Shown here: piece by piece, positions 1,010 through 27,244 of the stretch
Layout: every line of letters begins with the position of its first letter
Position numbering within the stretch: position 1 is the stretch's first letter
NCBI RefSeq assembly: GCF_018309085.1
Contig: NZ_CP070502.1
Location: forward strand, 3,033,001 to 3,097,000
DNA length: 64,000 nt
Reading direction: 5' to 3'
Source: Sporosarcina sp. Marseille-Q4063
GTDB taxonomy: Bacteria > Bacillota > Bacilli > Bacillales_A > Planococcaceae
Translations under genes and position numbers: made by a program
Notes under the pieces: generated by a model
The model's database searches: none
What the model was told of the DNA's origin: nothing
Seen by the model: the letters and a program-made list of their open reading frames with translations, nothing else

Positions 1010-4000
1010 ATGAAAAAAATAACCATAATTTTAATTACATTATTAATATTTAATTTAGCATTTCCTTCTCACTTATTAGCAGATAATAGTGCGAATGTTA
1101 GTGAAGTGGAATTTGAGGATTCAAATTATGACCTAGATAGTGATATAGAGAATGAATCGGAGGAAAGTCAGGAAGAAATAGAGGGGCAAACAGAAAATCT
1201 AGAGCAGGGAACGGAACCACAGACTGGTCTAAAAGAAGAGCAGGAAATAGAGCAGAATGTAAATCCGGAAACAGATTCGGAAAGTACCATTCATGAAACA
1301 GTGACAGAAACAGATAAGGAAACAGATAAGGAAAAAGATAAAGAAACGGATAATGAAATAGAGAAATCTGATGATGCGGAAATCAAAACTAACACAGAAA
1401 ACAAGAGTTCTTTGAAGAGAAGTGTGCAAGTACATAATATACAAGCACTAAAAGAAACGGTAACTAGTAAACTGGGCCGTATTCAAACTATTAATGCTAA
1501 AATCTATAAAACTATAGGTCAGGAAGATACTAGTATTACGGCTGGTTCAACGTATACTAATAAAGTTTTTTATATTAAGAAGCAAGCTGAGGCAAATGGT
1601 CAAAATTATTATCTAATCAGTACTTTAGCCAGTAGCACAAACGGTGTTATTGGATGGGTGAAGGCGACGGATATGTGGGCACAAAATCACGTGGCTGTAG
1701 ATCATGAACAAAAGACCTTCTATTTAAAAGGTACAGGGTGGTCATACACAGATGCCTGGGGCGCTTCTCAGGATGTAATATATAGCAATCTTTCTCAATA
1801 CCGTAATCAGGAATTTAAGGTTAACCTAACGGAAAAGGTAGGGGACGCCATTTGGTATCGTGGCACTTTAAGCGGTAAATCAATGTGGATACAAGCTTAT
1901 AATGTAAAAACATCATATGAAACTGAAACTAGTAAACTAGGTCATATACAAAGTGCTAATGCCAAAATTTATAAGAATATAGGTGAGGATTCTACTAGTA
2001 TTAACGCAGGCTCGACCTATACGAATAAAGTTTTTTATATTAAGAAAGAAGTAGAGGTAAATGGCCAACACTATTATTTAATCAGTACAGTAGCTAGCAG
2101 TACGAATGGCGTTATTGGCTGGGTGAAAGCAACGGATATGTGGGCCCAAAATCATGTTGCTGTAGATCATGAACAAAAGACCTTTTATTTAAAAGGAACC
2201 GGCTGGTCATATACAGATGCGTGGGGAGCTTCTCAGAATGTGATTTATAACAATCTTTCCTCCTATATAAATCAGGAGTTTAAAGTTAACCTAACGGAAA
2301 AAGTAGGCGATGCCATTTGGTACCGTGGTATTTTAAATGGAAGAACAATGTGGATACAAGCATATAATGTACAAGTTCCAAAAGAAACTGAAACTAGTAA
2401 ACTAGGGCACATTCAAAGTACCAATGCAAAAATTTATAACACTATAGGCGAGGATTCTACTAGTGTCACAGCCGGCTCAACATATACAAATAAAGTGTTT
2501 TATATTAAGAAACAAGCAGAGGTAAATGGCCAACACTATTATTTAATCAGTACAGTGGCTAGCAGTACGAACGGTGTTATTGGATGGGTGAAGGCAACGG
2601 ATATGTGGGCCCAAAATCATGTGGCTGTAGATCATGAACAAAAAACCTTTTATTTAAAAGGAACCGGCTGGTCATACACAGATGCTTGGGGAGCTTTCCA
2701 GAACGTCATTTATAACAATCTATCAACTTATAGAAATCAGGAATTTAAGGTTAACCTAACCGAAAAAGTTGGAGATGCTATTTGGTATCGTGGTATTTTA
2801 AATGGTAAATCAATGTGGATACAAGCATATAATGTACAATCAACAGTAGAAACTGAAACTAGTAAACTAGGTCATATTCAAAGTGAGAATGCCAAGATTT
2901 ATAAAAATGTTGGGGAGGATTCTACAAGTATCACTGCTGGCTCAACATATACGAATAAAGTGTTTTATATTAAGAAACAAGCTGAGTTAAACGGAGTAAC
3001 TTATTATTTGATTAGCACATTAGCAAGCAGCACGAACGGCGTTATTGGATGGGTGAAAGCAACTGATATGTGGGCGCAAGATCACGTGGCTGTAAACCAT
3101 GAACAAAAGACCTTCTATTTAAAAGGGACGGGCTGGTCATATACAGATGCATGGGGTGCCTCTCAGAATGTTATTTATAACAATCTTTATCAATACAGTA
3201 ACCAGGAATTTAAGGTTAACCTAACGGAAAAAGTTGGAGATGCCATATGGTACCGTGGTACTTTAAATGGTAAATCAATGTGGATCCAAGCATACAATGT
3301 GAAAATATCAAAAGAAAGTATTACTAGTAAACTGGGTCATATTCAAAGTGCCGATGCAAAAATTTATAATAGTTTAGATGAGGATTCTAGTATTACGGCC
3401 GGCTCAACATATATGAATAAAGTATTTTATATTAAGAAACAAGCAAAGGCAAATGGCCAAAACTACTATTTAATCAGCACAGTAGCTAGCAGTACAAATG
3501 GCGTCATTGGATGGGTAAAAGCTGAGGATATGTGGGCGCAAAATCATGTGGCTGTAGATCATGAACAAAAGACTTTCTATTTGAAAGGAACCGGATGGTC
3601 ATATACAGATGCTTGGGGAGCTTCCCAGAATGTTATTTATAATGATCTAACGCCCTATAGGAATCAGGAGTTTAAGGTTAATCTGACTGAAAAAGTGGGA
3701 GAAGCGATTTGGTATCGTGGAATTTTAAACGGAAGATCAATGTGGATTCAAGAATTTAATACTACCCGAATAAACGAAACATATTCAAATTATAATTTAA
3801 CGGTAGATCGAATGACTGATATCCAAATGGCTGTTACTCCCCAAACAGATAAGAGATACATGTTATGGATTAGGGAAGATGCATTTGAAAGCATCATTGA
3901 TGGACAAGGTGTTGTTAACAATAATAACTGGAATTTAAGAAGAGGCCCCGGTACCGATTATGCAGTAGGAGAACAGGTAAGAGGCGGCACAAAGTTACCA

Positions 4001-17357: not shown

Positions 17358-17615
17358 ATGTCCTCTCAATCAACCAAATCTATCAACTATGTCCGCCCAA
17401 TTTCGTCGGTCCCCCATGATGTCCGCGCAATCCACTATTATCTCCTCTCAATCCATCAAAACCGTCATTTATGTCCGCTCAATCGCGAAAGATGTCCGCC
17501 CAATTTCATCCGCACCCCATGATGTCCGCGCAATCCATATTATTCTCCTCTCAATCAACCAAATCAATCAATCAATTATGTCCGCTCAACCGCCAAAAAT
17601 CTCCACCCCATTTCG
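17358..17615 (+). repeat. Direct-repeat array A1 (motif ATGTCCGCNCAAT), upstream of NERD gene 1
   Basis: Ten copies of a 13-nt motif start at 17358, 17389, 17419, 17440, 17471, 17492, 17522, 17543, 17578 and 17599, i.e. spacings 31, 30, 21, 31, 21, 30, 21, 35, 21. Four copies make a 103-bp superunit (17389 to 17492). All copies point the same way as the NERD gene. The 590-bp gap 17138-17727 otherwise holds only the promoters of the flanking genes. It is not CRISPR: the intervals between motifs are 8-22 nt and there are no cas genes. Confidence 0.9.
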
Positions 17616-17643
17616 CCAACCAACCCCCACGCTCCAACACAAC

Positions 17644-17701
17644 TCTCCAAAATTCAATTTTCCCACCCCATCTTGTCACCACTCTCAATAAATGCTATAT
17701 T
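17644..17701 (+). promoter_or_regulatory. Promoter and conserved upstream block of NERD gene 1
   Basis: CTCCAAAATTCAATTTTCCC begins at 17644 and is repeated almost exactly before NERD gene 2 (26011). After it come TTGTCA (17673-17678), 17 bp, and an extended -10 TGC-TATATT (17696-17701). The same -35/extended -10 layout is found before gene 2. Confidence 0.65.
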
Positions 17702-17727
17702 AATTTCAACAATTCAGAAAGAGGTAG

Positions 17728-18699
17728 ATGCCTATCAAAATAATGCCTAGAAAAGAACCACCACTATTAAAAACACTCCCAAGATTAATCGCACGTCTAC
17801 CAAAAGATTCACCACATATTAAAAAACTCGAACAACGATTATACAGAGTTAGAGCAGGCTACTCTGGCGAACTCGAAATAGATCAATACATAGCTACACT
17901 TGAGGTCCCCACGTCAATGACGGTACTGACAGATATCCAACTTTCGCATTCCCCCGGTATGACATTCCAAATCGACACACTAATTTTGACCGAGAAATTC
18001 ATCTTAATTATCGACGTCAAAAATATAACTGACAAACTCCGTTTCAAAACAAATCCAAATCAGCTAGAGCAAGAAAGTAAAACAGGTGAAGTCAGACGAA
18101 TGGATTGCCCACTCGAGCAACTCCATACGCATATTCACAATCTACAAAATTGGCTTGCCAAAAGTAAATTTCAAGTTGACATCATCGGTCGAGTACTACT
18201 ATCAAATCCCAATGCCCATGTCATCGAAGCACCACCTAACGCACCGATCATCTATAAAAAAGGGCTGCCCGTCTTACTGCGCAATCAATCAAGAAAACCA
18301 ACAATTCACAACCCGAAACTAATTAAACGCATAGAAGAATTAATCCGTAAAAACCGAATCGATTACGATCCATTCCCGCTTTGCAACTACTTTTCAATTG
18401 ACTCAGATAGCCTAAAAAGGGGACAACTCTGCACGAAATGCGGTGAAACCATGCAATACGTAAATCATAAACAACGAAGATGCATCGAGTGCGGCATCAC
18501 AGCACCCAATAATTACCGCGAAACATTAATAGACTATTTCACGCTAATCAACAACTCCATTTCAAATCGGGAGTGCCGTGATTTTCTACAACTAAAAAAC
18601 AAAGACGCCGCCAATTACGCCATGAAATCACTTCCTTTGAATAAAACCGGAAATTCCGTAGCAACCAGATACGTGTGGCCAAAAAACTTCCTTTTGTAA
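17728..18699 (+). CDS. NERD-domain protein with zinc ribbon (gene 1)
   Basis: 323 residues. The N-terminal half is a NERD (nuclease-related) domain with the predicted active-site pattern: YSGE (Glu48), FQIDTL (Asp83) and IIDVKN (Asp96, Lys98). Then come a treble-clef/zinc-ribbon-like CxxC...CxxC (Cys235, 238, 252, 255) and a C-terminal helical segment with ISNRECRDFL. NERD proteins are predicted DNA/RNA-processing enzymes of the restriction-endonuclease-like fold; no activity can be inferred from sequence alone. The ATG at 17728 is only 3 bases after AGAGGT; an ATC at 17734 has better spacing and lies in a stretch conserved with gene 2. The gene has its own promoter and is flanked by repeat arrays. 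Confidence 0.85.
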   Translation: MPIKIMPRKEPPLLKTLPRLIARLPKDSPHIKKLEQRLYRVRAGYSGELEIDQYIATLEVPTSMTVLTDIQLSHSPGMTFQIDTLILTEKFILIIDVKNITDKLRFKTNPNQLEQESKTGEVRRMDCPLEQLHTHIHNLQNWLAKSKFQVDIIGRVLLSNPNAHVIEAPPNAPIIYKKGLPVLLRNQSRKPTIHNPKLIKRIEELIRKNRIDYDPFPLCNYFSIDSDSLKRGQLCTKCGETMQYVNHKQRRCIECGITAPNNYRETLIDYFTLINNSISNRECRDFLQLKNKDAANYAMKSLPLNKTGNSVATRYVWPKNFLL

Positions 18700-18773
18700 A
18701 ACCAATCAAAACCAAAAAGATAAATACAAGTAGAAAAGGGAAGCCGCTGGCCTCTCTTTTCAAGTGCCTTTAA

Positions 18774-18845
18774 AAGTCCGCCAAATCAACAAATTCCTCT
18801 ACCAGTCCAATTAATGTACTCTTCAGCTCTGTCGCCGCCCAATCC
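18774..18845 (+). repeat. Decayed repeat array downstream of NERD gene 1
   Basis: Degenerate copies of the array motif at 18774 (AAGTCCGCCAAAT), 18793, 18814 (ATGTACTCTTCAG) and about 18830 (TGTCGCCGCCCAAT), spaced 19, 21 and about 16. Individually weak, but phase and orientation agree with array A1. Confidence 0.45.
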
Positions 18846-18909
18846 ACAAAAAGCTACCACCCAAACACATTCCATGCGATAATCAAAAAAGAAAGAAAGG
18901 AGCCACACC

Positions 18910-19758
18910 ATGCCAACACTAATAAAATCCATAAAACAACAACAAGAATCCCTATCCGCCGCAGAAAAACAAATCGCTAAATACATCATCCAAAACCCAG
19001 ACCTAATCCCAAACATGACAACAAAAGAACTATCCACCAAAACCGGCGTATCAGAAGCAAGCATTGTCCGTTTCTGCAAATCCATCGGAATGGGCAGTTT
19101 CAAATCATTCAAACTCGCACTCGTCAGAGACCTAACAATCGCTGAAATGAATATCACGGATGTCACCAACTTACAAAAAAACGACTCACCCTACGATCTA
19201 TTCCAAAAAGTCATCCAAGTAAACAAATTCGCAATCGACTCTTGCACCGACTCTATGAACAAAAAAGAACTCGACGCAGCAGTCACAACCATCAAATCAG
19301 CAAAAAAAATCGTCTTCTTCGGCGTAGGAGGATCCTCCATCGCGGCGGTGGATGCGCATTATAAATTCACAAGACTTGGCTACCATTCCATCACAAGCCT
19401 AGACTTTCACCATTTACTAACCGTAATCCCATACCTAGAAAAAGGCGACGTCTTCATAGCCATCAGCACGTCAGGAATGACGAAAGATGTCATAGAGCTC
19501 GCGCAGTTCGCGCAAAAAACCGGCGCAACGGTAATCGCCATCACAAATCTCGACAAATCGACACTACACAAATTAGCAGACATCAATCTCTGCACGCCAA
19601 ACGTCGAACGTGATTTCAGAATCGGAAGTATCCCGTCACGCATGACGCAACTGACAATAATCGACACCCTATACATGAGCGTTTTCCACCAGATTGGAGA
19701 TAAAGTCATCAAGCATTACCACGATGCTAGAAACGAAATGGAAAAACTCCGACGTTAA
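18910..19758 (+). CDS. murR: MurR/RpiR-family transcriptional regulator
   Basis: 282 residues: an N-terminal RpiR-type HTH (TTKELSTKTGVSEASIVRFC) and a C-terminal SIS sugar-phosphate-binding domain (FFGVGGSSIAAVDAHYKF, AISTSGMTKDV). In B. subtilis and S. aureus relatives it controls MurNAc-6-phosphate catabolic genes, with MurNAc-6-P as the likely effector. It lies directly upstream of murQ-murP-mupG but is separated from them by a 121-bp gap with a promoter and palindromes, so it probably has its own transcript and represses the operon. Confidence 0.88.
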   Translation: MPTLIKSIKQQQESLSAAEKQIAKYIIQNPDLIPNMTTKELSTKTGVSEASIVRFCKSIGMGSFKSFKLALVRDLTIAEMNITDVTNLQKNDSPYDLFQKVIQVNKFAIDSCTDSMNKKELDAAVTTIKSAKKIVFFGVGGSSIAAVDAHYKFTRLGYHSITSLDFHHLLTVIPYLEKGDVFIAISTSGMTKDVIELAQFAQKTGATVIAITNLDKSTLHKLADINLCTPNVERDFRIGSIPSRMTQLTIIDTLYMSVFHQIGDKVIKHYHDARNEMEKLRR

Positions 19759-19782
19759 ACGTAAACTCTCTTTTCACTCAGA

Positions 19783-19797
19783 TGAAACTAAGTTTCA
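19783..19797. promoter_or_regulatory. Palindrome TGAAACTAAGTTTCA, candidate MurR operator
   Basis: Perfect 7-bp half-sites around a single A, 19 bp before the -35 of the murQ promoter. The element TAGTTTCA recurs at 19824-19831 inside the promoter. Assignment to MurR is inferred from position. Confidence 0.5.
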
Positions 19798-19815
19798 CGA
19801 ATAACTAAAAGACCA

Positions 19816-19852
19816 TTGACATATAGTTTCACAACGCTACAATAAAACTATA
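19816..19852 (+). promoter_or_regulatory. SigA promoter of murQPmupG with overlapping inverted repeat
   Basis: TTGACA (19816-19821), 16 bp, TACAAT (19838-19843). An inverted repeat TATAGTTT (19822-19829) / AAACTATA (19845-19852) brackets the -10, a good place for repressor binding. Confidence 0.7.
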
Positions 19853-19879
19853 AAAGAAGTTTACTAGAGAGGTGATCAA

Positions 19880-20767
19880 ATGCTCGAAAAGTTAGCAACC
19901 GAAACAAGAAACCCGAACACGATGCAATTAGATGAAATGTCGCCAAAAGAAATTCTGATCGCGATGAACCAAGAAGACAAAACAGTTCCACAAGCAGTCG
20001 AAAATGAAATCGACAGCATCGAAAAAGTAGTAAAAGCAGTCATTCACTCATTCAACAATAACGGACGTTTAATCTACGTAGGTGCCGGAACAAGCGGCAG
20101 ATTGGGAATCCTCGACGCAGTCGAATGCGTTCCGACTTTCGGAGTTTCACCAAACCAAGTCCAAGGTCTTATTGCGGGCGGTATGAAAGCGTTTACAATC
20201 GCGGTAGAAGGCGCCGAGGATAGCGTCGAACTAGGCGCGGAAGATTTAAAGGAAATCAACCTGACAGAAAACGACACCGTCATCGGAATCGCAGCAAGCG
20301 GCCGAACGCCATATGTAATCGGCGCACTAAATTACGCTAAAGAACTTAACGCAACAACAGCAGCCATCTCCTGCAATAAAAACGCAGAAATGAGCAAACA
20401 CGCTGACATAGCCATCGAAATCCAAACCGGCCCAGAAGTCTTAACAGGTTCCACAAGGCTCAAAGCAGGTACAGCGCAAAAACTAGTCCTGAACATGATT
20501 TCAACAGCATCCATGATCGGCATCGGAAAAGCGTATGAAAACCTGATGGTGGACGTTCAAGCCACCAACGAAAAATTAATAGAACGCTCCAAACGCATCA
20601 TCATGGAAGCGACCGGAGTCGACTACGAAACAGCTGCAAGCTATTACGAACAAGCCCAGCATCACGTGAAAACGGCCATTGTTATGATTCTACTAAAATG
20701 TTCATACAATGAAGCAGTAGAAAAACTAACAGAATCAAACGGCTTCGTCCGTCAGTCAATAAAATAA
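19880..20767 (+). CDS. murQ: N-acetylmuramic acid 6-phosphate etherase
   Basis: 295 residues, normal length for MurQ. It cleaves the lactyl ether of MurNAc-6-P, giving GlcNAc-6-P and D-lactate. The SIS-domain signature LIYVGAGTSGRLGILDAVEC and VEGAEDS, IGIAASGRTPYV and STRLKAGTAQKLVLNM are all typical. GAGAGGTG stands before the ATG. First gene of the MurNAc operon; the EIIBC gene follows after 21 bp. Confidence 0.96.
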   Translation: MLEKLATETRNPNTMQLDEMSPKEILIAMNQEDKTVPQAVENEIDSIEKVVKAVIHSFNNNGRLIYVGAGTSGRLGILDAVECVPTFGVSPNQVQGLIAGGMKAFTIAVEGAEDSVELGAEDLKEINLTENDTVIGIAASGRTPYVIGALNYAKELNATTAAISCNKNAEMSKHADIAIEIQTGPEVLTGSTRLKAGTAQKLVLNMISTASMIGIGKAYENLMVDVQATNEKLIERSKRIIMEATGVDYETAASYYEQAQHHVKTAIVMILLKCSYNEAVEKLTESNGFVRQSIK

Positions 20768-20788
20768 TTTAAAAAGTGGGGGATTAAA

Positions 20789-22168
20789 GTGAAAAAAGAG
20801 GAACGCATGGCCACCGATATATTCGAACATATCGGCGGCAAAGGAAACATCAGGCGACTATCGCATTGCATGACGCGTCTACGCTTACAACTAAAAGACG
20901 ACAGTAAAGCGGACATCGTCGCACTCAAAAAAGTCGAAGGCGTCATGGGCGTCATTGATGACGACACGCTCCAAATCGTCGTCGGCCCCGGAACGGTCAA
21001 TAGAGTCGCTGCAGAAATGAGCAAAGTAACAGGACTCGCGATTGGCGAAGATGCCAATCCAGACGATGACGAATTGACATTCAGCGAAAAAGCAGCACGC
21101 GACAACGAGAACCGTAAAAAGAAAAACCAAACACCGTTCAAAATGCTCTTACGCAGAATCGGTAACATCTTCATCCCTCTTATTCCGGGTCTAGTCGCAT
21201 CGGGATTACTAAACGGGGCGGCGAACTTCGCCAAAAACGCGGGCTACGACGCAACGACAACTTGGATGCAAATCCTGCTCGTCCTTGGTAGCGGCGTCTT
21301 CATGTACCTGGCCATTTTGGTCGGTTGGAACACAGCGAAAGAATTCGGGGGAACACCGGTTCTCGGCGCCATCGCAGGGGCGACATTATTCCACCCCGCG
21401 CTCCCGGACATCGTGATTTACGGCGAACCATTAGTCTCCGGTCGCGGCGGATTATTCGGCGTCATTTTTGCAGCATTCCTAATGACCGTTGTTGAAAAAC
21501 GAATTCGTAAAGTCATGCCAGCTGCAGTTGATATTATCTTTACACCATTACTTACGCTATTAATCGTCGGATTCTTTTCACTTTACGCAATCATGCCAGT
21601 CGCAGGCGTGCTGTCGGATGCCATCACATCAGGTATCAACTCGATCCTTGACGTGGGCGGAGTCGTCGCGGGCGCAATTCTCGCAGGATTCTTCTTGCCG
21701 CTCGTCATGGCAGGACTCCACCACGGACTAACGCCGATCCATTTGGAGTTAATCGAAACACTAAGCTACACAGCGCTATTACCAATACTCGCAATGGCAG
21801 GCGCAGGTCAAGTCGGCGCAGCAATCGCGATCTTCGTGAAAACGAAAAACAAACGCTTACGCAACATCATCAAAGGCGCACTTCCAGTCGGGTTCCTAGG
21901 AATCGGCGAGCCGCTACTTTACGGAGTCACGCTTCCACTAGGTCGCCCATTCATCACAGCTTGTATGGGCGGAGCAGTCGGTGGCGCATTCCAAGCAATG
22001 ATGAAAGTCGCAGCCTCAGGAATCGGCGTATCGGGTATTTCACTAATCCCGCTAATCGCAAACAACCAATACCTGTTCTACTTCATCGGCTTGGTCATCG
22101 CGTACGTATTCGGATTCATATTCACCTATACGTGGGGTTTCAAAGAAGAAATGTCAGAAGGTATCTAA
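20789..22168 (+). CDS. murP: PTS EIIBC transporter for N-acetylmuramic acid (MurP-type)
   Basis: 459 residues. The EIIB domain has its phosphorylated Cys in RLSHCMTRLRLQL (near residue 31), followed by a linker and a polytopic EIIC domain of the glucose/sucrose superfamily (HHGLTPIHLELIE, GIGEPLLYGVTLPLGRPF). There is no EIIA domain, as usual for MurP, so a shared EIIA-Glc would be needed. Start is GTG at 20789, placed 6-7 bases after a GGGGG site; an ATG at 20807 is an alternative. Substrate is assigned from the flanking murQ and mupG; MurNAc or MurNAc-GlcNAc is likely. Confidence 0.9.
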   Translation: MKKEERMATDIFEHIGGKGNIRRLSHCMTRLRLQLKDDSKADIVALKKVEGVMGVIDDDTLQIVVGPGTVNRVAAEMSKVTGLAIGEDANPDDDELTFSEKAARDNENRKKKNQTPFKMLLRRIGNIFIPLIPGLVASGLLNGAANFAKNAGYDATTTWMQILLVLGSGVFMYLAILVGWNTAKEFGGTPVLGAIAGATLFHPALPDIVIYGEPLVSGRGGLFGVIFAAFLMTVVEKRIRKVMPAAVDIIFTPLLTLLIVGFFSLYAIMPVAGVLSDAITSGINSILDVGGVVAGAILAGFFLPLVMAGLHHGLTPIHLELIETLSYTALLPILAMAGAGQVGAAIAIFVKTKNKRLRNIIKGALPVGFLGIGEPLLYGVTLPLGRPFITACMGGAVGGAFQAMMKVAASGIGVSGISLIPLIANNQYLFYFIGLVIAYVFGFIFTYTWGFKEEMSEGI

Positions 22169-22220
22169 AGAGGAGGGGGCAACCCCTTCTTTTTTAAATT
22201 AATAAAGGAGTGACATAGAC

Positions 22221-23291
22221 ATGCTAGGAATATCGGTATACCTAGGAAACGACATCATCAAAGACTTCGATACATATTTAAACAATATGCAAAAAGCAGG
22301 ATTCACATCCATCTTCACATCCCTGCACATCCCAGAAGACGACCCAACAAAATACACAGAACGACTACGCGCATTAGGAGCAGCCGCAAAACGGGGCAAC
22401 ATGGAACTCATGGCCGACATCTCACCAAAATCTCTCGGCCACCTCGGCTTCACCTGGGAAAACGCCGCAGGACTCCTCGAATGGGGCGTCACAGGACTAA
22501 GACTAGACTACGGCATTTCCGAAGAAACAATGATCAAACTATCCAAAAAAATGAAAATCGCCCTAAACGCAAGCACACTAACAAAAGAAATTCTAGAAAG
22601 ACTAAAAGCAAACGGACTCCAAACCGATTCCGTAGAAGCATGGCACAACTTCTACCCAAGACCAGAAACCGGACTCGACAAACAAGAATTCCAAAAAGTA
22701 AACAACTGGCTAAAACAAGAAGGACTAACCGTCATGGCCTTCATCCCAGGCGACGCCGACCGACGAGGACCGCTATTCGAAGGCTTGCCCACACTAGAAG
22801 ACCATCGACACAGCACACCATTCGAAGCCTATCTAGACCTAATCACAAACTGCGCAGTCGAAAAAATCCTAGTCGGAGACCTAAACTTAACCGAAAAAAC
22901 CCTATCACAATTCACAGCTTACCAAAAAGGAATCCTAAAACTACGAGCAAAACCATTCACCGCGAATAAAGAGCTGTGTGACATACTGTCAACCATACAA
23001 ACCAACCGCTGGGACGCAGCAAGAGATTGCATCAGATCAATTGAGTCAAGAGAGTACGGCCTAATAGGAACCCGACCAGTAACACCAAAAAACACAGTCG
23101 AAAGACCAATTGGATCGATAACAATCGACAACGAGAAATATGGGCGATACCAAGGTGAGATTCAAATCACAAAACGCGATCTAAAAGCAGATGAAAAAGT
23201 GAACGTCATCGGCCAAGTAATAACAGAAGACCAGCCACTACTACAATACATAAGCGGCGGCATGAAATTTCAGATTGAATTTGTTCAATAA
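22221..23291 (+). CDS. mupG: 6-phospho-N-acetylmuramidase (DUF871 family)
   Basis: 356 residues of the DUF871/MupG family: a TIM-barrel N-terminal part (GISVYLGND, LMADISPKSLGHLGF, GLRLDYGI, WHNFYPRPETGLD) and a small C-terminal beta domain. In S. aureus MupG splits MurNAc-6-P-GlcNAc after uptake by MurP, and MurQ then processes the MurNAc-6-P; the gene order here (murR, murQ, murP, mupG) supports the same pathway. AAAGGAG stands before the ATG. The coding strand is strikingly rich in A and C. Terminator follows. Confidence 0.93.
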   Translation: MLGISVYLGNDIIKDFDTYLNNMQKAGFTSIFTSLHIPEDDPTKYTERLRALGAAAKRGNMELMADISPKSLGHLGFTWENAAGLLEWGVTGLRLDYGISEETMIKLSKKMKIALNASTLTKEILERLKANGLQTDSVEAWHNFYPRPETGLDKQEFQKVNNWLKQEGLTVMAFIPGDADRRGPLFEGLPTLEDHRHSTPFEAYLDLITNCAVEKILVGDLNLTEKTLSQFTAYQKGILKLRAKPFTANKELCDILSTIQTNRWDAARDCIRSIESREYGLIGTRPVTPKNTVERPIGSITIDNEKYGRYQGEIQITKRDLKADEKVNVIGQVITEDQPLLQYISGGMKFQIEFVQ

Positions 23292-23294
23292 AAA

Positions 23295-23317
23295 GGGATG
23301 CCGCACCGCGGCATCCC
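23295..23317 (+). terminator. Terminator after mupG
   Basis: 10-bp perfect arms GGGATGCCGC / GCGGCATCCC, 3-nt loop, then TTTT. Near-identical stem core to the one after NERD gene 2. Confidence 0.9.
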
Positions 23318-23337
23318 TTTTCACTTTCAATATTACG

Positions 23338-23530
23338 ATGTCCGCGCAATCCTCAATAATCTCCGCTCAATCTATCAAAACCATCGATTACGTCCGCCCA
23401 ATCCAGAAAGATGTCCGCTCAATTTACTAAAATCTTATGATGTCCGCCGAATCCACCGTTTTCTCCTCCCAATCCATCAAATCAGTCGATTATGTTCGCT
23501 CAATCCAAGAAAATGTCCGCCCAATTCCAT
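23338..23530 (+). repeat. Direct-repeat array A2 (motif ATGTCCGCNCAAT)
   Basis: Eight motif copies at 23338, 23359, 23390, 23411, 23440, 23461, 23492 and 23513 (spacings 21, 31, 21, 29, 21, 31, 21). The four-element superunit of 102 bp has the same element order as array A1 5.9 kb upstream. It starts 21 bp after the mupG terminator and ends just before the 3' end of the convergent LysR gene. Confidence 0.9.
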
Positions 23531-23565
23531 AGGTACCGATCGCGGCAACACAATCTACACATACT

Positions 23566-24444
23566 TCAAAAATTCCCCTCAATATCCCCAATCAACTCAC
23601 GAATCGCAGCCGGAAAATACCGATTTTTCATATACGTCAAATACACCGTCCGCGTCAAATTAGGAGAATCTACTTCCTTAATGACAACCCGCGAATCACG
23701 AACGCCCCTTGAATAATTCTCCGGAATAAATGCAATCCCCAAATTTTCCTCAACAAGTTTCCACGCCGTTTCAATACGCTCGATTTCAAACATAATCGAC
23801 GGCTCAATGCCCTCAGCTTCAAACGCTTCTAATATATTAACCCTCGTTTGATAACCCTCTTTAGTGATAATCAAAGGCTCATCTTTCAAATCATCGAACG
23901 ACAAATCCCGCTTCGAAGAAAGCTCATGATCCTCATGCATGATCAACAAAAACTTCTCTGTATAAATGGGAATGAATGCGATATCTTCTTCTTCAACGAG
24001 TTGGTTCGTGATACTCAAGTGGGTCTCATAACTTCTAAGCGATTGGATGACATGCTTCTTATTCGTGATTTCTGTAAAACGAATTTTCATCGTCGGATAC
24101 GTCTGTTTAAAGTTTTTAATAACTTTAGGAATCCAATTTTGAGTGGACTCGATAATGCTTAAATGGACCTCGCCTTTACCCGTTGCATTTAATTCGACAA
24201 TTTCTGTTTCGATAATCGATAAATTCAAAAGTAACTTTTTTGCACGATCATATAGAAGTTGGCCGCCGTCGGTAATTTGCATCGCCCGTGTATTTCGCTC
24301 GAAAAGTTGCGTGTTCAACTGTTGTTCGAGTGCTTTTATGGACAGACTTAACGTCGGTTGCGAAATATGAAGAATTTTGGCGGCTTTTGTAAAACTGTTT
24401 TCCTCTACAACCGCCACGAAATATTTTAATTGCTTAAGATCCAT
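23566..24444 (-). CDS. LysR-family transcriptional regulator
   Basis: 292 residues from the ATG at 24444 (MDLKQLKYFVAVVEENSFTK), which has AGGTG upstream; a longer in-frame start at 24480 adds residues foreign to LysR proteins. The N-terminal winged HTH (KAAKILHISQPTLSLSIKAL) is followed by a periplasmic-binding-protein-like effector domain. It is divergent from gltS with 151 bp between, the classic LysR arrangement, so it probably controls gltS. The effector is not known; glutamate or a related metabolite is a guess from context. Confidence 0.88.
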   Translation of the reverse strand: MDLKQLKYFVAVVEENSFTKAAKILHISQPTLSLSIKALEQQLNTQLFERNTRAMQITDGGQLLYDRAKKLLLNLSIIETEIVELNATGKGEVHLSIIESTQNWIPKVIKNFKQTYPTMKIRFTEITNKKHVIQSLRSYETHLSITNQLVEEEDIAFIPIYTEKFLLIMHEDHELSSKRDLSFDDLKDEPLIITKEGYQTRVNILEAFEAEGIEPSIMFEIERIETAWKLVEENLGIAFIPENYSRGVRDSRVVIKEVDSPNLTRTVYLTYMKNRYFPAAIRELIGDIEGNF

Positions 24445-24494
24445 GCAAAGGCACCTACTTCCACTTATTAATAAAACCAATGAGTATATAGTTA

Positions 24495-24520
24495 TTCGAT
24501 ATTAGAAATTATAAATCGAA
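24495..24520. promoter_or_regulatory. Inverted repeat in the LysR-gltS divergent region
   Basis: TTCGAT (24495-24500) and ATCGAA (24515-24520) separated by 14 AT-rich bases, about 50 bp upstream of the LysR start and 75 bp before gltS. Candidate LysR binding site. Confidence 0.5.
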
Positions 24521-24553
24521 CTCTTTATAATGTAAACAATAAGAAACTTTAAC

Positions 24554-24567
24554 ATAAAGCGCTTTCA
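24554..24567 (-). promoter_or_regulatory. Candidate cre (CcpA) site upstream of gltS
   Basis: Read on the minus strand TGAAAGCGCTTTAT matches 12 of 14 positions of the cre consensus TGWAANCGNTNWCA. It lies about 30 bp before the gltS start codon, so binding would block transcription. Confidence 0.4.
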
Positions 24568-24595
24568 CAGCGTTGACATAAAAGGAGGAACAACC

Positions 24596-25789
24596 ATGAC
24601 AATCGAACTCAACCAAGTTACGACGATATTCTTATCCGTTGCACTTTTCGTCTTAGGGACATTACTCGTCAAAAGAGTAGGTATTTTACAGCGTTTTTGT
24701 ATCCCAGCTCCAGTAGTAGGGGGGCTATTATTCGCAATTGTTGCGGCAATCCTTAAACAACTGAATTGGGTTGAAGTTACGCTGGACACTTCTTTACAAG
24801 GTATGTTCATGCTCGCATTCTTCACCACAGTCGGAATCGGCGCCAGCTTCAAGTTAGTTAAACTCGGTGGTAAGTTATTAATCATCTACTGGCTAGCTTG
24901 CGGATTTTTAGCGTTAGCACAAAACGCGATCGCTATTTCACTCGCAAAAGTATTCGACCTTCATCCGTTGATCGGAGTGATGGCTGGTGCAATTTCTATG
25001 GAAGGCGGACACGGAGCAGCAACAGCATTCGGTCAAACGATTGAAGATCTAGGCGTAGCATCAGCTCTTCCAATCGGAATTGCGGCCGCTACATTTGGAC
25101 TAATTGCCGGTGGACTAATCGGTGGACCGATGGCAAAACATCTAATCTCGAAATACAACTTAAAGTCTTCAGAAGATGCAGCTGAACCTACCGAAATCGA
25201 GGAATTAACCAAAAACGAACCCATCAACTCAAATCGTTTTTTCACTCAACTTCTATTGATCACATTCTCAATGGCAGTAGGCTCGTACTTAGCGGAACTA
25301 TTCTCCACGTCAACTGGATTCGTTCTTCCTAGTTATGTCGGTGCAATGTTTGTCGCAGTAATCGTACGAAATGTTGTAGATAAGATTAATCCTGAAATAG
25401 TGGAAATGCGCAGTGTGGAATTAATCGGAGATGTTACATTGGGCGTATTCCTTTCAATGGCGCTAATGAGTATCAAACTCTGGGAACTTACAGGATTGGC
25501 GCTCCCAATCTTAGTCATCGTTTTCGTCCAAGCACTCTTCATCGTGTTATTCGGGATTTTCGTTCTCTTCCGTTTACTCGGAAAATCATTCGACGCGGCG
25601 GTTATGGTCGGAGGATTTGCCGGTCATGGACTAGGCGCAACACCAAACGCAATGGCGAATATGGCGGCCATTACAGGGAAATTTGGTCATTCTCGAAAAG
25701 CCTATTTAGTCGTACCGATCGTAGGGGCTTTCTTAGTAGATGTCTTTGCGATGCCGATTATTATTACGACGATTAATATATTTTCATAA
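24596..25789 (+). CDS. gltS: Sodium/glutamate symporter
   Basis: 397 residues with about ten to twelve hydrophobic segments in two related halves. Features of the GltS/ESS family are the conserved stretches PAPVVGGLLFA and AISMEGGHGAATAFGQT in the first half and VGGFAGHGLGATPNAMAN in the second (the two re-entrant loops). It imports glutamate with sodium at the cytoplasmic membrane. AAAGGAGG stands 7 bases before the ATG. It is divergent from a LysR gene and followed by a strong stem-loop. Confidence 0.93.
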   Translation: MTIELNQVTTIFLSVALFVLGTLLVKRVGILQRFCIPAPVVGGLLFAIVAAILKQLNWVEVTLDTSLQGMFMLAFFTTVGIGASFKLVKLGGKLLIIYWLACGFLALAQNAIAISLAKVFDLHPLIGVMAGAISMEGGHGAATAFGQTIEDLGVASALPIGIAAATFGLIAGGLIGGPMAKHLISKYNLKSSEDAAEPTEIEELTKNEPINSNRFFTQLLLITFSMAVGSYLAELFSTSTGFVLPSYVGAMFVAVIVRNVVDKINPEIVEMRSVELIGDVTLGVFLSMALMSIKLWELTGLALPILVIVFVQALFIVLFGIFVLFRLLGKSFDAAVMVGGFAGHGLGATPNAMANMAAITGKFGHSRKAYLVVPIVGAFLVDVFAMPIIITTINIFS

Positions 25790-25790
25790 G

Positions 25791-25829
25791 AAAATCTCCT
25801 ATTCCCTCAAGTGGGGAGTAGGAGATTTC
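25791..25829 (+). terminator. Terminator after gltS
   Basis: AAATCTCCTA / TAGGAGATTT stem with an inner CCC/GGG extension, followed by CTTTATT. Confidence 0.8.
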
Positions 25830-25854
25830 TTTATTGTTGGCTCTTTTTCAATTA

Positions 25855-25972
25855 ATGTCATCTCTATCAGTCGCATTATCGTAGCAATCACTCGCAATGT
25901 TGTCTCAATACCAGAATGTCATCGCAATCCCCAATAATGTCGTCCCATTCAATAAAATCCTCGTCTCCAAGC
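25855..25972 (+). repeat. Direct-repeat array B1 (motif ATGTCGTCCCAAT), upstream of NERD gene 2
   Basis: Copies at 25855, 25876, 25897, 25916 and 25937 with a possible decayed one near 25957; spacings 21, 21, 19, 21. The motif differs from array A mainly in TCGTC/TTGTC instead of TCCGC. The gap 25790-26098 holds the gltS terminator, this array and the NERD gene 2 promoter. Confidence 0.75.
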
Positions 25973-26010
25973 CTCATATTCTCATCCCAATTCTCCCACT
26001 CGATCCACCT

Positions 26011-26067
26011 CCAAAATTCAATCTTCCCATTACCTATTGTCGTCCTCCTACCATTCTGATACTTTTA
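26011..26067 (+). promoter_or_regulatory. Promoter and conserved upstream block of NERD gene 2
   Basis: CTCCAAAATTCAATCTTCCC at 26011 matches the block at 17644 with one change. TTGTCG (26039-26044), 17 bp, then extended -10 TGA-TACTTT (26062-26067). Confidence 0.6.
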
Positions 26068-26098
26068 AGTAGAATACATATAGAAGGGGAGAAGGCCT

Positions 26099-27070
26099 AT
26101 CAAAATAACCAGAAGAGAACCACCTTTACTAAGAGCATTACCGCGGCTTATCGCGCGTTTACCCCATCAGTATCCGAGAAAAGATGAACTGAATTTTGAA
26201 CGCAAACTTTACCAAATCCAAGCAGGCTATTCTGGAGAACAAAAAGTCGACAAATACCTCGAACAACTCGAGCTCCCCCAAACGTCGATCGTACTCACAG
26301 ATATCCACCTTGCCCTATCCCCAGGGCATACATTCCAAATTGACACGCTAGTATTGACCGAACAAGCAATCATAATTCTTGAAATAAAAAACATTACAGG
26401 TGAACTTTATTTCGAAACCGACCCGTACCAACTAAGAAGACGAAAGTCGAGCGGTGAAGAAACGATAATGGATTGCCCTCTCACACAACTCGAAGTCACC
26501 CAGGAAAACTTAAAAGTTTGGCTGGCAAAAAGAGGCTTTCACATTGAAGTTTCCAGCCAAATCATTCTTGCCAACAAAAACGGTGGTGTCAAAACAGCAC
26601 CGCCCAATTCACCTATTATCTATCTAAAGCGGCTGTCCATTTTCCTGCGTGAAAATGAAAGAAAACCATCGATATTTTCCGCCAATCAATTAAAAAATAT
26701 AAGCTATGTCATCATGCAACAACGACTTGAATACAATCCATATCCACTCTGCACCTACTACCAACTAGATCCGAAACTACTAACAACAGGACAACTCTGT
26801 TCAAAATGCAATGCCACAATGATTTATCAAAATCACAAAAGCCGCTATTGTAAATGGTGCAAAGAAAAAGAACCCAATAATTACGGCCAATCAATTCAAG
26901 ACTGGCTTATGCTAATAAACACCACAATTTCTAATCGGGAATGCAGATATTTCCTTCAAATTAACGATAGAAGAGAAGCCCACTACGCACTAAGATCATT
27001 AAATCTGATTAAAGAAGGAAAGTCTGTAGCTACTAGATACTCCTGGCCAAATGGAATTCCATTTCGATAG
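26099..27070 (+). CDS. NERD-domain protein with zinc ribbon (gene 2), no ATG start
   Basis: About 323 residues, a full-length paralogue of gene 1 with the same pattern: YSGE, FQIDTLVL, ILEIKN (Glu in place of Asp before x-Lys, also allowed in this fold), LCSKCNATM...CKWC zinc ribbon, and a C-terminal ISNRECRYFL segment. The frame is intact, but the codon equivalent to the ATG of gene 1 is AGG (26093-26095 region) and a stop lies just upstream; no ATG, GTG or TTG occurs before a TTG at 26354, deep inside the domain. The strong AAGGGGAG at 26084-26091 is 7 bases before ATC (26099), and ATA follows at 26105. So either a rare AUC/AUA start is used or the gene has lost translation recently. Confidence 0.72.
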   Translation: MKITRREPPLLRALPRLIARLPHQYPRKDELNFERKLYQIQAGYSGEQKVDKYLEQLELPQTSIVLTDIHLALSPGHTFQIDTLVLTEQAIIILEIKNITGELYFETDPYQLRRRKSSGEETIMDCPLTQLEVTQENLKVWLAKRGFHIEVSSQIILANKNGGVKTAPPNSPIIYLKRLSIFLRENERKPSIFSANQLKNISYVIMQQRLEYNPYPLCTYYQLDPKLLTTGQLCSKCNATMIYQNHKSRYCKWCKEKEPNNYGQSIQDWLMLINTTISNRECRYFLQINDRREAHYALRSLNLIKEGKSVATRYSWPNGIPFR

Positions 27071-27075
27071 GGAAG

Positions 27076-27091
27076 GGATGCCGCGGCATCC
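27076..27091 (+). terminator. Stem-loop after NERD gene 2
   Basis: Perfect 16-bp palindrome GGATGCCGCGGCATCC followed by TTTT. Confidence 0.7.
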
Positions 27092-27103
27092 TTTTAATCA
27101 AAA

Positions 27104-27244
27104 AAGTCGTCGAAATCGACAAAGATGTTGTCCCAATAAATCATAATGTCGTCCCAATTTGGGAATGTGGTCTCAATCTATTAAGATGTTGGCGCTATCA
27201 CACATAATGTTGTCCCAACAACAAGTAATGTCGTCCCAATCCTC
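27104..27244 (+). repeat. Direct-repeat array B2 (motif ATGTYGTCCCAAT), downstream of NERD gene 2
   Basis: Seven copies at 27104, 27125, 27146, 27165, 27186, 27207 and 27228, spacings 21, 21, 19, 21, 21, 21. Same orientation as the gene and same motif type as array B1. Confidence 0.88.

Follow-up and report, generated by a model that had tools for sequence, protein, structure and literature searches.

A family of NERD-domain genes in Sporosarcina and other Bacillales accompanied by private, helically phased repeat arrays

We analyzed a 64,000-nucleotide stretch of the Sporosarcina sp. Marseille-Q4063 genome (a single contig of 3.98 Mb, NZ_CP070502.1; positions 3,033,001 to 3,097,000, hereafter the window), which holds two related genes, NERD1 (17728..18699, + strand) and NERD2 (26099..27070, + strand). 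The product of each combines a NERD (PD-(D/E)XK-like nuclease) domain with a zinc ribbon and, at its C terminus, a winged helix. Genes of this family are accompanied by arrays of a short direct repeat, whose units are phased with the DNA helix and whose motif changes together with the winged helix. Arrays resembling these motifs also occur away from the genes, and related genomes differ in whether a shared site holds the gene, an array, or neither. We interpret these observations as a cognate nuclease–array system, in which a scarce, potentially harmful nuclease would be held on private arrays in cis and in trans under genetic conflict, and we consider this reading about equally likely to be right or wrong.

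Genes and their phased arrays

A profile of the family matches 64 of the 68 genomes of the genus, with 1-13 matches each, and 238 of the 261 genomes of the taxonomic family, in 18 of 19 genera; an order-level search returned the same 261 genomes and no other family, adding no breadth. Loci were the best 30 of each search together with 100 places picked from listings (98 of this family and two of another NERD type), rather than all matches, and pieces were for the most part passed over. After 23 partial hits or hits of another NERD type were dropped from 205 hidden Markov model hits, 182 full-length genes were left, of which 162 are distinct. Their 1-kb flanks were searched blind for repeated 13-mers with neighbors 16-45 bp apart, a score of at least 3 counting as an array, and control segments were treated identically (a few score high, up to 18). 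An array was present on at least one side of 148 of the 162 genes, compared with 5.2% of 248 control segments, and on both sides of 63.

A second, alignment-based scan covered the best 80 of 294 named loci, which partly overlap the 162 genes and come from Sporosarcina and other Bacillales. It found an array at 71 of the 80 against 7 of 150 control ends. With L257-L279 and the Sporosarcina/Bhargavaea loci L282, L287, and L306 set aside by their titles, 48 of 54 loci carry an array, among them Rossellomorea, Cytobacillus, Fictibacillus, Peribacillus, Metabacillus, and Lentibacillus. A named-locus scan with a single protein as query found no relative. A tblastn search with NERD1 (E 1e-5) had no match in plasmid or phage collections, and we rejected a plasmid or phage origin on this basis.

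The repeats are direct 13-nt units, mostly about 18-21 bp apart, numbering from 4 to nearly 50 per array. Among arrays with a score of at least 5, the steps are 21 bp (1347), 20 bp (273), 19 bp (139), and 18 bp (28), and longer steps group near 30, 41, 51, 61, 71, 81, and 91 bp. The best period of the unique longer steps is 10.15 bp, and none of 2000 random sets was equally strong. Skipped units (42 and 63 bp) supply much of this 10-bp signal; its independent part is the odd step of 29-31 bp, which accounts for 12 of 143 unique spacings compared with 14 across the remaining values from 24 to 38. In arrays with a 21-bp step, a step of 18 or 19 bp often recurs at every third to fifth unit, and blocks of units have been duplicated, such as 21+19+21 bp in L025 and 21x3+29 in L005. 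Such phasing would be favored if proteins bound next to one another along a single face of the duplex, with satellite-like turnover.

In the window, arrays were compared with 500 first-order Markov resamplings per stretch. Upstream of NERD1, the array at 17358..17611 (+ strand, consensus ATGTCCGCNCAAT) has 8 units with at most two mismatches and 10 with at most three, at steps of 21 and 30-31 bp and one of 35; its part at 17358-17590 holds all 8 of the closer units, against a control mean of 0.10, and none of the resamplings had as many. Upstream of NERD2 lies an array of 4-5 units at 25855..25991 (+ strand, consensus ATGTYGTCYCAAT; 0 of 500 resamplings reach 4), and downstream one at 27104..27240 (+ strand; 5 units with at most two mismatches, 7 with at most three, steps of 19-21 bp; 0 of 500). 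The original prediction had placed arrays on both sides of each gene, which holds for these three. The supposedly decayed fourth, downstream of NERD1 at 18774..18843 (+ strand), consists of just two loose copies, one with two mismatches and one with three, a result reached by 4 of 500 resamplings. Steps in NERD1-type arrays are 21 and 29-31 bp (one of 35), and those in NERD2-type arrays 19-21 or 42 bp. The steps of 30-31 bp break the reading frame, and the idea that the arrays encode a peptide repeat was therefore discarded. All repeats of both types in the window lie on the + strand, as predicted, but as a general rule the shared orientation fails, since 5 of the 54 genes with clear arrays on both sides have upstream and downstream arrays that are mutually inverted.

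A simple explanation would be that an array is no more than the operator of its NERD gene. The usual Bacillaceae-type form fits it, with 4-6 units at 20-21 bp lying mostly 85-130 bp upstream of the match start. However, arrays stand downstream of 123 of the 162 genes and upstream of only 88, the median distance from the end of an upstream array to the gene is 158 bp in the window's family (79 arrays), and arrays occur without any gene, so we regard autoregulation alone as very improbable.

Private motifs and the protein that may read them

Motifs could be compared for 145 of the 162 genes, those without a usable motif being dropped. In 48 of the 54 genes with clear arrays on both sides, the upstream motif finds its best match, on either strand, in the downstream motif of that same gene. 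Between genes, the motif is common to 82% of 39 pairs at 70% or higher protein identity and to 0-3% of pairs below 50%. In a partial Mantel analysis of 549 pairs at 40% or higher identity, similarity in motif was correlated with similarity in the winged helix (r = 0.37) and, more weakly, in the zinc ribbon (r = 0.15), with 0 of 300 permutations as strong in either case. No such correlation was seen for the NERD domain (r = 0.02; 114 of 300 permutations), the N-terminal arm (249), or the linker (76). The original prediction had proposed a protein–repeat unit and a search of related genomes; the unit is supported by the arrays at 148 genes and 71 of the best 80 named loci, by the agreement of the two sides, and by this co-variation.

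The best single alignment columns are 311, 312, 317, and 292, which lie in or beside the modeled wing and recognition helix. The zinc-ribbon columns 248 and 246 come next, then 296 and 291, and in ninth place stands 190, a linker position. From this pattern, the winged helix very probably binds the motif. A duplicated pair in one genome (G053) is 96% identical in the NERD domain and 57% in the winged helix, and its motifs differ. Motifs also differ in both same-genome pairs at 70% or higher identity. At 60% or higher, motifs differ in four of six same-genome pairs and are alike in two, which is no clear departure from all such pairs (62 of 114 alike; genomes assigned by hand). Orthogonality of paralogues was thus not adopted as a rule and is only suggested.

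NERD1 has 323 residues and an ATG start, and NERD2 is 49% identical to it. The original prediction of NERD-domain genes at these two positions is confirmed by matches to Pfam PF08378 (E 8e-15 and 55.7 bits for NERD1, E 4e-15 and 56.6 bits for NERD2, against a gathering cut-off of 22.1 bits). The NERD domain of NERD1 covers residues 44-158 (17857..18201, + strand), the zinc ribbon lies at 18430..18492 (+ strand), and the winged helix occupies residues 263-316 (18514..18675, + strand), with the recognition helix at 292-299 and the wing at 305-316. In a 21-row alignment of relatives, E48, D83, and K98 are invariant, residue 96 is D or E (alignment A1), and the four zinc-ribbon cysteines (C235, C238, C252, and C255) are kept. 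Conserved E, D, and (D/E)xK residues are the signature of PD-(D/E)XK nucleases, and the relatives of NERD1 carry them throughout; the nuclease is probably active. The closest named proteins are from Sporosarcina (57% identity). A Pfam scan of the NERD proteins found NERD and no transposase family.

The predicted structure of NERD1 is confident overall (mean predicted local distance difference test, pLDDT, 94). Its residues 5-192 show moderate similarity (Z 7-8.7) to nucleases that include Can2/Cdn1 and McrBC, and Foldseek returned no match reaching 1e-3. The fold comparison was limited to these residues, and we therefore make no claim about relatives of the winged helix; a model of the C-terminal part folded alone had a pLDDT of 47 and was discarded. 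The likeness to CRISPR ancillary nucleases and McrBC, together with weak profile matches to the defense kinases PglW and MAD6, would suit an anti-phage or anti-plasmid defense in which arrays mark self DNA. However, the PADLOC and NCBIfam families gave no match that was good or that spanned the length of the family (gene neighborhoods were not surveyed for defense genes), and arrays of the one motif counted are few per genome. We thus consider a defense role highly unlikely, and membership in a known defense family was rejected on these weak, partial matches.

Arrays without a gene

Arrays of the NERD1 motif also stand apart from any NERD gene. One lies in the window at 23338..23525 (+ strand; 7 units with at most two mismatches, 8 with at most three; 0 of 500 resamplings), in the gap between two convergent genes; two genes and 2.6 kb separate it from NERD2 downstream, and no NERD gene is adjacent. 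Another (L007, 5488-5653) is 0.8 Mb away in the same genome and 45 kb from the nearest NERD gene. Arrays accompany four of the five family members of this genome; other NERD types there (L006 and L012) fall outside the full-length set, L006 having no array and L012 having been scanned for the NERD1-type motif only. Near-identical GGATGCCGC..GCGGCATCC hairpins stand at 23295-23320, after a gene ending at 23291, and at 27073-27094, after NERD2, each directly preceding an array. Elsewhere in the window, a 465-bp tandem repeat of five copies (83% matches) occupies 1450-3760.

A dispersed set is present in a congener, G158, where the motif of one NERD gene, CTGGTCGTATTT, recurs at eight further places away from the gene. 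Seven have at least three phased units and one has two; all lie outside open reading frames (ORFs) of at least 100 codons, and three lie between convergent genes. Across 46 congeners, the counted motif is tied to the presence of the gene with one exception: its motif-pair pattern occurs in only two genomes, with 8 matches in G158, which has the cognate NERD gene, and 1 in G169. The nearest other relatives of this NERD protein are 55-60% identical, in six genomes. Nine places in G158 were too few to support a replication-strand bias of solo arrays, and we do not claim one. The original prediction proposed to test whether arrays are absent where the gene is absent, and we ran this test in part. 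A 400-kb portion of G165, which lacks NERD genes, yielded five weak matches (one of them ambiguous with paired 19-20-bp steps) and no clear intergenic array with 20/21-bp phasing. In 400 kb of G158 (9 NERD matches) away from its NERD loci there were eight matches, two of which are phased arrays whose motifs resemble those of two resident NERDs. Solo arrays do exist, however.

The site between pepF and yjbH (this and the other gene labels, recD2, arginase, PAP2, sip, and pepT, were assigned by reading the sequences) illustrates gain and loss. Of 30 genomes, 10 have the gene there and 4 a solo array in its absence (one weak); 12 lack both, and in 4 a contig end interrupts the site. The NERD proteins at this site are 61-86% identical (one pair 99%), compared with 92-100% for the upstream neighbor and 72-100% for the downstream one. 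Separately, NERD relatives at L015, L039, L065, L100, L131, and L186 are interrupted by stops or frame breaks, as dispensable genes would be.

Motifs also differ in trans. We compared five solo sites of G158 with the same places in G149, G152, G157, and G170, whose NERD relatives are flanked by GAGCGTATTT-type repeats, in contrast to TGGTCGTATTT in G158. Thirteen arrays were scorable at four sites in the five species, and 11 best fit their own clade (G158 or the other four). The two misfits are at the sip site in G149 and G152, which bears G158's motif with near-identical spacers, as if a segment had been exchanged. The recD2 array of G170 has a further motif variant at 20-bp steps. The remaining combinations of site and genome had no array above threshold or no site, and pepT was below threshold in G158 as well. 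At L412, L415, and L416, three genomes share a solo array at one site with near-identical spacers although their NERD motifs differ, a possible recent exchange of a segment.

In a rival reading, the nuclease would cut at arrays and so copy, expand, and disperse them, in the manner of RAYT-REP systems. The gene with its flanking arrays would be the autonomous unit, and solo arrays would be non-autonomous copies or scars. RAYTs are themselves described as having flanking repeats, enzyme–repeat co-evolution, and fast gene evolution (PMC2817692), and such a spread would account for the repeats around NERD genes, the scattered extragenic arrays, which go with the gene in the case of the single motif tested, the higher-order duplication within arrays, the gene-less arrays at the pepF-yjbH site, and the divergence of NERD proteins there relative to their neighbors. 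On the other hand, the spacers of the dispersed arrays in G158 are only 0.24-0.44 identical in all but one flanking column, compared with about 0.85 in the motif, where conservation is partly by construction because the units were picked by motif. Since the spacers are unlike, no recent block copying is seen. Some array sites are moreover common to several species, and NERD1 has no plasmid or phage match. We consider spread of this kind possible but unlikely.

The same spacers speak for a host function, in which arrays would be operators, insulators, or chromosome-organizing sites and NERD proteins nucleoid or terminator-side factors. Within one genome, several sites preserve the motif although their spacers have drifted, sites are common to several species, and three of the eight G158 arrays sit between convergent genes. 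General regulators, however, rarely change their reading head so fast, and the number of matches, 1-13 per genome but zero in 4 of the 68 congeners (two of these at most 90% complete), does not suggest an essential role. This reading seems to us slightly less probable again than dispersal by the nuclease.

A scarce nuclease and its relation to known systems

The starts of NERD genes may bear on how much protein is made. NERD2 has no in-frame ATG, GTG, or TTG before 26354. The original prediction began it at 26099, where an ATC with a short, 4-nt Shine-Dalgarno match 8 nt upstream is a candidate start; an apparent database copy (P0016, 284 amino acids) begins later. A canonical start is absent up to profile position 14 in 23 of the 162 genes, four of which enter the profile too late to count. 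Scanning up to profile position 8, we found that a strong Shine-Dalgarno sequence points only to AUA, AUC, or AUU in 30 of 119 judgeable NERD genes, to a canonical start in 36, and to neither in 53, compared with 9 and 70 of 315 other long ORFs, each scanned over 40 codons (AUA/AUC/AUU only and canonical, respectively; P = 5e-6 against the NERD genes). In Staphylococcus aureus, initiation is reported to be lower from AUA and AUU starts that have an extended Shine-Dalgarno sequence (PMC13009471). We read the weak starts of this family (UUG as well as AUA, AUC, and AUU) as a means of keeping the protein scarce. Frequent AUA/AUC/AUU starts are thereby suggested within one gene family, and annotation may miss or shorten such genes.

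The nuclease–array reading we favor would then work as follows. The winged helix of each NERD protein, aided by the zinc ribbon, would read a single private motif about 13-15 nt long. Because the repeats are about two helical turns apart, many proteins would probably line up side by side on one DNA face, both where the protein is encoded and, in trans, on the scattered solo arrays. The conserved active site and weak starts suggest a hazardous enzyme kept scarce, and the arrays would most likely be a DNA platform that holds and restrains it. That restraint is their purpose is our guess, which predicts that free protein is toxic. Conflict would appear as a fast-changing reading head, concerted motif change, some re-targeted duplicates, and genes lost with the array left behind. 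A more specific form casts the arrays as a DNA antidote. The nuclease, translated from an infC-like near-cognate start, would be harmless while parked on arrays and harmful once they are lost; arrays elsewhere would give host immunity, and motif turnover would be an arms race between reading head and arrays. We regard this form as rather improbable.

Several observations weigh against the nuclease–array system as we propose it. Fourteen of the 162 genes, among them the family member at L008 in the window's own genome, have no array at threshold, and layouts with arrays only upstream or only downstream vary, so that no single architecture is required. The single G158-type array in G169 lies in a genome whose one examined NERD shows no such motif. 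Permutation leaves some shared ancestry in the motif co-variation. The comparison in trans amounts to a single contrast, between G158 and four relatives, at four sites; with own-genome matrices (G149 and G152 pooled), 8 of 13 arrays score best with their own, one of them tied, because the three non-G158 matrices share a core. Three arrays prefer a sister's matrix, and the two sip arrays prefer that of G158.

If correct, our interpretation would describe a chromosomal repeat system in bacteria with satellite-like higher-order arrays. The more than 100 protein–motif pairs, some with diverged reading heads on near-constant nuclease domains, are a natural experiment, and they would offer orthogonal DNA readers and possibly a DNA-based antidote.

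Among known systems, plasmid iterons are direct repeats that stand in tandem at intervals of about two helical turns, and a winged-helix Rep protein encoded next door reads them. The NERD arrays resemble them as phased tandem direct repeats beside a gene for a winged-helix protein. They differ in being chromosomal, in the nuclease domain, and in arrays that lie on both sides of genes and are also dispersed, and no replication gene is seen beside NERD1 or NERD2. The NERD domain itself is shared with SmdA, a membrane cell-division protein (PMC9040797), and with PglW and MAD6, kinases of defense systems; the available parts of the sources give no repeat-array partnership for any of the three. The authors of the SmdA study state that to their knowledge the function of the NERD domain had not been studied experimentally (PMC9040797).

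The original prediction knew of no described system with this layout, and among the papers listed in searches of the open PubMed Central set, none reports NERD genes alongside cognate arrays in its title or the opening of its abstract. We know of no enzyme–repeat system with this enzyme or this repeat architecture. The nearest in logic is RAYT-REP (or BIME), in which an enzyme gene is flanked by its own repeats, cognate repeats are dispersed outside genes, enzyme and repeat co-evolve, and the gene evolves fast. NERD genes are likewise flanked (at least one side in 148 and both in 63 of 162, with their own motif on both sides in 48 of 54). The parts are unrelated, however: a NERD domain with a winged helix here, an IS200/IS605-related tyrosine transposase there; helically phased direct arrays here, palindromic repeats there; and 9 array places in G158 for the one motif counted, compared with more than 100 copies per genome, with no sign of recent block copying.

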